Shown here piece by piece: positions 24,237-26,390 of a stretch of DNA of 64,000 bases. This DNA comes from Phascolarctobacterium sp. Its GTDB lineage: Bacteria; Bacillota; Negativicutes; Acidaminococcales; Acidaminococcaceae. The notes below the pieces were generated by a model. The model was not told the origin of the DNA. It worked only from the letters and a program-made list of their open reading frames with translations, and did no database searches. The stretch is from assembly GCA_030531205.1 (NCBI GenBank), contig JAUNOC010000001.1, positions 1 through 64,000 on the forward strand, in the 5' to 3' direction. Position 1 is the stretch's first letter; the number at the start of each line of letters is the position of its first letter. Position numbers and translations under genes: made by a program.

Positions 24237-24276
24237 TTTGTACTACTGCAAACTTAATCACAAATCGCCCAAAATT

Positions 24277-24313
24277 AAAAGCAGGAAAATTATCTAATTT
24301 CCCTGCTTTTTTT
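24277..24313. terminator. Bidirectional terminator
   Basis: AAAAGCAGG and CCTGCTTTT enclose an AT-rich inner stem, with T tracts on both strands. It serves the minus-strand gene ending at 24389. Confidence 0.7.
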
Positions 24314-24388
24314 GATGGAAAATTACATAATTTTCCACATTAAAGATTTACACCAACCTTCAGAACCAATTATCACTACTCTAAGTAA

Positions 24389-24808
24389 TTACTCGACAAA
24401 TTTTGAATGCCAAATATAAACCACTCTTTGCCCATCGTCTAAAACAGAAAATTTAGCAATTCCTTGAGCTGTGAACCCTTCACCATTACCCAATTCTTTA
24501 GCTGTTTTATATTCACTTTTATCAGAAAAAGAAACAACAACTGCCCAATCATGATTTTTACCAAATTTTCTACCAGCAAATAGCATCAAATATCCCTGTG
24601 GATTATATCCAACACCGTGAGCAAGTCCGGAAATCCTGACTTTTTTACCATCATATATTTCCTTACATTTTGCATCAGGTAAAGTGCTAATATCGTCAAT
24701 TATTGACCCGTCGGTACATGTCATATCTGGCATAGACCCGATGAAATAACATAAACCAAATATAACAATTATAATCCCTAAAATAGTTGTTATACACCCC
24801 TTTTTCAT
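24389..24808 (-). CDS. Hypothetical membrane-anchored protein
   Basis: 139 residues. One N-terminal membrane helix (KGCITTILGIIIVIFGLCYFI is the hydrophobic part), then a soluble domain of mostly beta strands (KKVRISGLAHGVG, GYLMLFAGRK, FTAQGIAKF), resembling a small OB-like barrel. I do not recognise a family. AAAGGAAAATAAG precedes the ATG. Its lower GC content and position next to the CoiA/antitoxin pair suggest an accessory patch. Confidence 0.7.
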   Translation of the reverse strand: MKKGCITTILGIIIVIFGLCYFIGSMPDMTCTDGSIIDDISTLPDAKCKEIYDGKKVRISGLAHGVGYNPQGYLMLFAGRKFGKNHDWAVVVSFSDKSEYKTAKELGNGEGFTAQGIAKFSVLDDGQRVVYIWHSKFVE

Positions 24809-24844: not shown

Positions 24845-25621
24845 TCATCTAACATTTCGAATAATTGGAACAGGTCGATGTTCAAGAAGCCATTTTTCAA
24901 TTGCTTCTTGAACATTCTTATTCCACATAACAATGCTTTTACAATTCGAAACTATTTGTGAAAATTCCTCATGTGGTATTCCAAATAAAAATGCTCGCTG
25001 CTCATATCCTATCATACACAATCTCATACACAACAAAAACCTCTTACTATCAAGTTGAACATCATAAAATACAATATGTTTACTGTTCCTCCATTGCTTT
25101 GGAAAAGCAGTTAAAGATCCCAATTGTGTCATCCACCCACCTTTTCGAATACCATTTATTACATCATTTGGAATTATATCAATAATTTTAGAAACATCCC
25201 TCTTTCCAAAAATATCGACTACCCAAACAATGCCTTTGGTATTAGCAGAATAAAATTGCTCTCTCTCATTTTGTTGTTCTTCTTTAATGTGTGAATGTTG
25301 AAATTCCACAACCAACCCATCTGCAGTACATACATCTGCAATATGCCAATCATCAGCATCTTTAGGATTATCTATCCTAACTTCTTGCCATTCCTCTGGA
25401 AATAAATTTTGCCATTGAATATGCCATGGTGTTTTACTTTCCCACCATTTATCACACATCTTTGAATTTAAATGAGCCCAATGAGACATTCTATCTTGAT
25501 AAATCTTTGCAACAACTTCCCCACCACAATGCGGGCATATTCCGTGCAATGCCCTATTATTTTCATGTCTTGGTAACATTTTAACGCCATTTACCAATGC
25601 ATATTGTAATTGTACACTCAT
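24845..25621 (-). CDS. CoiA-like nuclease-fold protein
   Basis: 258 residues. The N-terminus has a zinc-knuckle-like CPHCGGEV and the SHWAHL segment; the middle carries a PD-(D/E)xK-like core (HIADVCTADGLVVEFQHS, about 88-106), the hallmark of CoiA competence proteins. The C-terminal half is less conserved. No Shine-Dalgarno is visible; its ATG lies 5 bp after the antitoxin-like gene's stop, so it is probably translated by coupling. Roles in DNA uptake or defence are both possible. Confidence 0.75.
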   Translation of the reverse strand: MSVQLQYALVNGVKMLPRHENNRALHGICPHCGGEVVAKIYQDRMSHWAHLNSKMCDKWWESKTPWHIQWQNLFPEEWQEVRIDNPKDADDWHIADVCTADGLVVEFQHSHIKEEQQNEREQFYSANTKGIVWVVDIFGKRDVSKIIDIIPNDVINGIRKGGWMTQLGSLTAFPKQWRNSKHIVFYDVQLDSKRFLLCMRLCMIGYEQRAFLFGIPHEEFSQIVSNCKSIVMWNKNVQEAIEKWLLEHRPVPIIRNVR

Positions 25622-25626
25622 TTTTT

Positions 25627-25920
25627 TTACATACCATATTTTTCTTTCGAAGCATCAGCAACATCCCTTGCAGAATGTATTTCTCCAGCCAATGCCTTTT
25701 GTGCTAATATTTTATCAAGTTCTGCCCCACTCATATCCTCTACAGAACGAAGGTAAGAAACTTTTGTACTAACTGCAAAAGGCAAACCTTGAACCTGCAA
25801 AGACCTTTTCATAAAGAGACGAAAAGCAGTAGGTAAATCCAACCCCAAACTTTCATATAATTTTGTCGTCTCTTCTTTTAATTCTTCATCACATCTGAAT
25901 TGTACCAATGTGCTACCCAT
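25627..25920 (-). CDS. RelB/DinJ-type antitoxin without a recognisable toxin
   Basis: 97 residues. The N-terminal ribbon-helix-helix (LVQFRCDEELKEETTKLYES... LGLDLPTAFRLFMKR) is typical of RelB/DinJ. The downstream partner should be a ~90-residue YafQ/RelE toxin; instead there is a 258-residue CoiA-like gene 5 bp away. The ATG follows AAGGAGGATATACAA. It probably autoregulates the pair. Confidence 0.85.
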   Translation of the reverse strand: MGSTLVQFRCDEELKEETTKLYESLGLDLPTAFRLFMKRSLQVQGLPFAVSTKVSYLRSVEDMSGAELDKILAQKALAGEIHSARDVADASKEKYGM

Positions 25921-26004
25921 TTGTATATCCTCCTTATACGTTTCATTTGTTTAGACATTCTACTACATTTGTCTATTGTTTGTCAAGTACTTTTCTATAA
26001 TTTT

Positions 26005-26390
26005 TGTTTTCACTCTTCACTTTACTTTCAAAAAAATTCTCTCAGCCAAAAATGAAAAAATCGTGAAACAATAAATTTCCACTGTCGACATTTTCAGCGA
26101 TAATGTCGACACCGAAACTTTTTACTTTTATGATTTTGAATAAAAATAAAAGTCCTTTTCACACCAAAAGCATTTTCATTACTAAAATTACTCTTCAACA
26201 AAACGCAGTTAAAAGCGTGGAAAGTTAATTTCAAAATCGCGAGATTTTATATCAAAGTCGCGCGATTTTGAAATTGAGATTATGCTGTTTTGAATAAAAA
26301 AATCCTGTGATTGATTTTTAATCACAGGAACATTTTACCTTTAATTTACAACTTCTAACCTAAACTATCAACTTAACTTGCTGCCGCAAA
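26005..26390. repeat. Palindrome-cassette repeat, copy 2, joined to a core repeat and 7-bp array
   Basis: The same arms as copy 1 (TTCACTCTTCACTTT, ATGAAAAAATCGTGAAA, AAACGCAGTTAAAAGCGT, CTGTTTTGAATAAAA), but the palindromes differ: TGTCGACATT/AATGTCGACA in the left half and AAAATC-GCGA-GATTTT plus a related CGCGCG copy in the right half. It ends in TCCTGTGATT, which can pair with the inverted core at 26319-26340; a heptamer array (TACAACT, TCTAACC) follows, up to the end of the next gene. Confidence 0.72.

Follow-up and report, generated by a model that had tools for sequence, protein, structure and literature searches.

A RelB-family antitoxin gene upstream of a CoiA-like nuclease gene in Phascolarctobacterium sp.: a putative chimeric operon

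The window, i.e., the whole stretch of 64,000 nucleotides of Phascolarctobacterium sp. DNA that was analysed, contains on its minus strand a gene for a RelB/DinJ-family antitoxin (relB, 25627..25920) of 97 amino acids with a ribbon-helix-helix N-terminus, followed by a CoiA-family gene (coiA, 24845..25621) that encodes a protein of 258 amino acids with a zinc-ribbon N-terminus and a predicted PD-(D/E)XK core (D96, E106, Q108). The relB gene has a strong promoter on the same strand (25957..25986; TTGACA-18-TAGAAT, 11 of 12 matches), which is overlapped by an imperfect palindrome (TAGACA...TGTCTA), and its start codon is preceded by the Shine-Dalgarno site AAGGAGG. No open reading frame for a RelE, ParE or YafQ toxin lies next to the relB of the window, where the neighbour is the CoiA-like gene; an adjacent toxin of the known type II families (RelE, ParE, YafQ, YoeB) is therefore missing from this operon. 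The two genes are separated by 5 nt (25622..25626, minus strand), and the sequence 5' of the coiA ATG, GGTATGTAAAAAAAATG, has no Shine-Dalgarno site. Since the gap is so short and lacks such a site, translation of coiA in the window appears to depend on translation of relB. Downstream of coiA follows an AT-rich gene for a membrane-anchored protein of 139 amino acids (24389..24808, minus strand) with its own Shine-Dalgarno site, AAGGA. An earlier note, made from the sequence alone, had described an antitoxin gene without a RelE/YafQ partner, a coiA start 5 bp past the relB stop without its own ribosome-binding site and an AT-rich gene for a small membrane protein behind it, and all of this was indeed found; its view that relB and coiA are translated as one unit is probably right as well, given the 5-nt gap.

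The assignment of RelB to the RelB/DinJ family is based on two profiles, both of which it matched above the curated cut-off: TIGR02384 (RelB_DinJ) with 47.6 bits (cut-off, 45.65) and Pfam RelB (PF04221) with 28.1 bits (cut-off, 22.4). The genome (G000; 1.33 Mb) contains eight RelB-like genes, six of which lie 5' of YafQ-, ParE- or YoeB-like toxin genes or are orphans; behind the orphan relB at G000:C1:21607, for example, the next gene is DNA polymerase III delta-like. The comparison within the genus covered two other genomes, G001 and G002, both of them fragmented. In the sister species G002, the gene for a RelB homologue with 57% identity overlaps a gene encoding a ParE_toxin protein of 116 amino acids (E=2.7e-9), a toxin of the ParE/RelE fold. 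The homologue in G001 is an orphan with no toxin gene behind it, and in neither genome is the next gene a coiA. The C-terminus of the window RelB retains the pattern of the ParE-paired homologue, and a close homologue of the G002 ParE was not found in G000, where the best match (30%) has an antitoxin of its own. Because the RelB of the sister species has a ParE/RelE-fold toxin that lacks a close homologue here, loss or replacement of the toxin in this lineage would be the simplest history. RelB gave no match in viral contigs and only partial matches in plasmids and phages.

The CoiA-like protein scored just below the cut-offs of CoiA_N (PF25164; E=4.6e-5, 23.3 bits, cut-off 26.3) and CoiA_nuc (PF06054; E=0.0011, 19.6 bits, cut-off 20.3), the latter score being 20.7 bits when its frame neighbours were included, and CoiA_N was matched by 84 of 85 aligned family members (E ≤ 0.01). 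A single CoiA-like protein as the query against genome contigs did not find relatives; the alignment was made with 5 rows, a 12-row set being too divergent. Members of the family were found in 44 plasmid records, at 34 viral-contig loci and at no fewer than 341 genome loci, and their presence in the class is sporadic, with the CoiA profile matching 8 of 380 genomes, mostly weakly. The CoiA homologue of G002 stands alone downstream of uvrB. The same adjacency, which the earlier note had suggested looking for elsewhere, was found at a second site in G000, but in neither same-genus genome and not once among 122 loci of plasmids, viruses and genomes that carry CoiA-like relatives, so that the pairing lacks the conservation across genomes expected for a type II operon. 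A RelB profile run over these 122 loci detected one RelB, located 1.4 kb away and with its own PIN-domain partner. A literature search, in which some terms matched author names or other words, found no paper linking CoiA with RelB.

The AlphaFold2 model of the window CoiA-like protein (pLDDT 86.8; core mostly 88 to 95), for which sequences of the window and of related loci were used and plasmid-record rows left out, contains the elements H65-71, E79-84, E92-98, E103-108, H114-127 and E130-136, i.e., the alpha-beta-beta-beta-alpha-beta core of PD-(D/E)XK nucleases. D96, E106 and Q108 are invariant in 85 of 85 sequences and would make up an active site of the ExQ variant with conserved acidic residues, and the N-terminal part of the model holds a cluster of C29, C32, H47, H50 and C56; at the nearly invariant C40, the window protein has I. 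Neither a PDB sequence search, which gave no significant match to any solved structure, nor Foldseek alone against the PDB (E ≥ 0.04) revealed a significant relative. In a structural second look, the leading matches were Can2, Bax1, Cfr10I, T7 endonuclease I and DdmD, all of which are PD-(D/E)XK proteins, with Z values of 4.4 to 6.8 that are middling and inside the range about which the tool cautions. Topology and invariant residues thus make it plausible that the protein is a DNA-processing nuclease, one of two roles that the earlier note had offered; the other, a non-canonical toxin, found no support.

Defence genes were recurrent or otherwise notable beside CoiA-like genes and were recorded locus by locus. 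At three loci (L168, L184, L191), the CoiA-like gene overlaps a gene for an MmeI-type methylase by 4 nt, and at L184 two further genes follow, the first of them helicase-like; this arrangement is possibly an uncharacterised defence operon. A CoiA-like gene was also located 21 nt beyond CBASS-like patatin, cyclase and E2 genes (L128:1251-4804), behind multiubiquitin, ThiF and DUF6527 genes on a Roseovarius plasmid (L037:1375-4726), near a PDC-S46 ATPase (L178) and near an AriA-like ATPase (L191). The CoiA-like family, with its hundreds of loci, some of them beside operons for restriction, CBASS or ubiquitin-like conjugation, could itself be more useful to follow up.

The second relB-coiA pair of G000 has a RelB (G000:C13:152594-152884) that is 84% identical to the window RelB, whereas its CoiA-like protein, with 322 amino acids and R at the position of E61, is only 37 to 39% identical to that of the window; both coiA-family genes of the genome are thus preceded by relB. 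Here, the genes are 32 nt apart, and a Shine-Dalgarno-like GAGAGGA lies between two AAAAAATGAGT repeats. The 5-nt gap of the window looks like the result of a deletion between the AAAAAATGAGT repeats of a longer gap, and the reverse direction, from the shorter to the longer gap, is possible. The two loci share, at 88% identity, a block of 727 bp that comprises a hairpin, the 280-bp repeat, the promoter and relB; it starts with a terminator-like hairpin (26303..26329, minus strand), and both promoter hexamers are conserved in the second copy, where one arm of the palindrome is altered. Identity drops from about 0.9 to about 0.5 just past the relB stop, and the first 14 coiA codons are 81% identical.

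Synonymous divergence between the copies is discordant, with a dS of 0.25 for RelB and of about 1.8 (saturated) for CoiA, and 7 of 29 four-fold sites were changed in RelB versus 21 of 28 in CoiA (Fisher p=0.0002). These values show that the two coiA genes diverged much earlier than the relB copies; they exclude a simple recent duplication of the whole pair, so that either the 5' module must have been transferred or gene conversion must have taken place. The relB part and the CoiA part thus differ in history, relB having been copied or homogenised as a module. Between species, dS of RelB (residues 1 to 50) is about 0.95, compared with 0.25 between the copies, and the relB copies therefore separated or were homogenised after the split from G002. 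In the same DNA-binding part, dN/dS between both G000 copies is 0.19. The CoiA tree, which has long branches, did not settle how the sequences of the window, the second copy and G002 branch; it is therefore the saturation of synonymous sites, rather than this tree, on which the view of the coiA genes as old paralogues is based. The glmM site of G002 was considered as the empty site of the second copy and was rejected, since the gene order differs.

The sequences around the pair were inspected as well. The dispersed, hairpin-rich repeat of about 280 bp (26001..26280; strand not assigned), immediately upstream of the relB promoter, has about 15 long copies in G000 (including L023 to L030) that are 71 to 100% identical over at least 200 bp, besides many fragments. 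In its hairpins, palindromic cores (TCGCGA, TACGTA, GACGTC, GTCGCC and others) are swapped between copies, and one hairpin has compensatory two-sided changes in 10 of 21 pairs. Matches of the repeat to Rfam mir-553 were dismissed, as their scores lie under the gathering score and reflect the palindrome. A double-hairpin, terminator-like element (24271..24342, minus strand; folding z-score, -7.1) is 92% shared with the second relB-coiA locus; it has several other genomic copies and, being a dispersed low-copy repeat, was rejected as a cassette boundary. The 139-residue protein (24389..24808 in the window; also at L208:4961-5380) has no Pfam match and was found among 41 genomes in this genus only, with homologues at 78% and 29%. 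In G001, the 78% homologue lies near a contig end, directly behind a C-terminal CoiA remnant, apparently the final ~50 codons of a second-copy-type CoiA-like gene (GIKEANARNNGYSKGKKNGRS). Since this remnant precedes the homologue, coiA beside the 139-residue protein gene may be the older neighbourhood.

If RelB were to bind and neutralise the CoiA-like nuclease, the two would form a true toxin-antitoxin pair, and the antitoxin-first order, the 5-nt spacing with its likely translational coupling, the intact active-site residues of the predicted nuclease and the upkeep of two pairs in a genome of 1.33 Mb would all suit such a function. However, the relatives of the nuclease live without an adjacent RelB at every one of the 122 loci, the RelB C-terminus still resembles that of a ParE-paired antitoxin, and the unequal identities of the RelB and CoiA copies indicate that the effectors did not diverge in step with their antitoxins; therefore, we consider a neutralised toxin unlikely. 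The non-canonical toxin of the earlier note is likewise hard to reconcile with the rarity of the adjacency and with a sister-species RelB whose toxin partner has no close homologue here, findings that largely correspond to the two circumstances named in the note as speaking against its proposal. A new type of toxin-antitoxin system, in which ParE was replaced by a CoiA-family nuclease opposed by the RelB-family antitoxin and the antitoxin-promoter module was copied within the genome, also seems improbable to us.

A plainer reading is that relB is an orphan by chance, a leftover or an anti-addiction gene, and that coiA is merely downstream and linked to it by promoter read-through only. Orphan antitoxins and antitoxins paired with non-toxin-antitoxin genes have been described (PMC7354431), other orphan relB genes exist in G000 and G001, as described above, and CoiA-like relatives manage without RelB. 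Against it, relB precedes both coiA-family genes of G000, and translation of coiA in the window seems to depend on relB; with these two points in mind, a functional relB-coiA link is possible, and we regard a purely accidental neighbourhood as conceivable but not probable.

On balance, we lean towards a chimeric operon in which the antitoxin gene and promoter of a former relBE/parDE pair drive a CoiA-family nuclease gene. The antitoxin gene of such a pair would have lost its toxin gene and, together with its own promoter, come to precede the nuclease gene. The discordant synonymous divergence shows that the 5' module, comprising the repeat, the promoter, relB and the first coiA codons, was either copied from one to the other of two coiA genes that had diverged long before or homogenised between them. 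DNA-binding autoregulation is the established role of the N-terminal domain of the RelB family, and RelB is most likely the DNA-binding autoregulator of the relB-coiA operon. The CoiA-like protein would be produced by translational coupling to relB and, judging from its fold, its conserved residues and the defence genes near its relatives, would process or degrade DNA, probably of foreign origin; binding or neutralisation of this protein by RelB would not be required. Points against this reading are the middling Z values, the Foldseek search that gave nothing significant and the loss of the nearly invariant C40 from the window protein. Because relB-coiA occurs at two sites here and at none in the other genomes examined, the arrangement looks like a lineage-specific gene rearrangement rather than a new toxin-antitoxin family. 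What lies behind an antitoxin-promoter module would thus have changed, a classical toxin gene giving way to one for a nuclease from a defence-associated family that has been little studied. Since the genome contains two natural copies of the arrangement and the two genes within them differ in age, it is suited to asking whether orphan antitoxins turn into plain regulators or new neutralisers.

Compared with known systems, the locus resembles relBE, parDE and dinJ-yafQ operons in its promoter, its Shine-Dalgarno site, the antitoxin-first order and a RelB/DinJ score above the cut-off, and a same-genus homologue of its RelB has a ParE partner; it differs in that a CoiA-family gene takes the place of the toxin gene. 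With orphan antitoxins and non-toxin-antitoxin pairings (PMC7354431), it shares a toxin-less antitoxin with a possible role as regulator or in anti-addiction, but here one module precedes two long-diverged nuclease genes of the same family. The CoiA-like protein has the N-terminal zinc-ribbon-like domain and nuclease-like core of the CoiA family at low sequence similarity, but it is shorter, belongs to a widespread branch in plasmids, viruses and genomes and is encoded without adjoining competence genes. With the PD-(D/E)XK nucleases Can2, Bax1, Cfr10I, T7 endonuclease I and the nuclease domain of DdmD, it shares the order of core elements, D96 and E106-x-Q108, and differs from them in that its last motif has Q at the position of K and that it has an additional zinc-ribbon.
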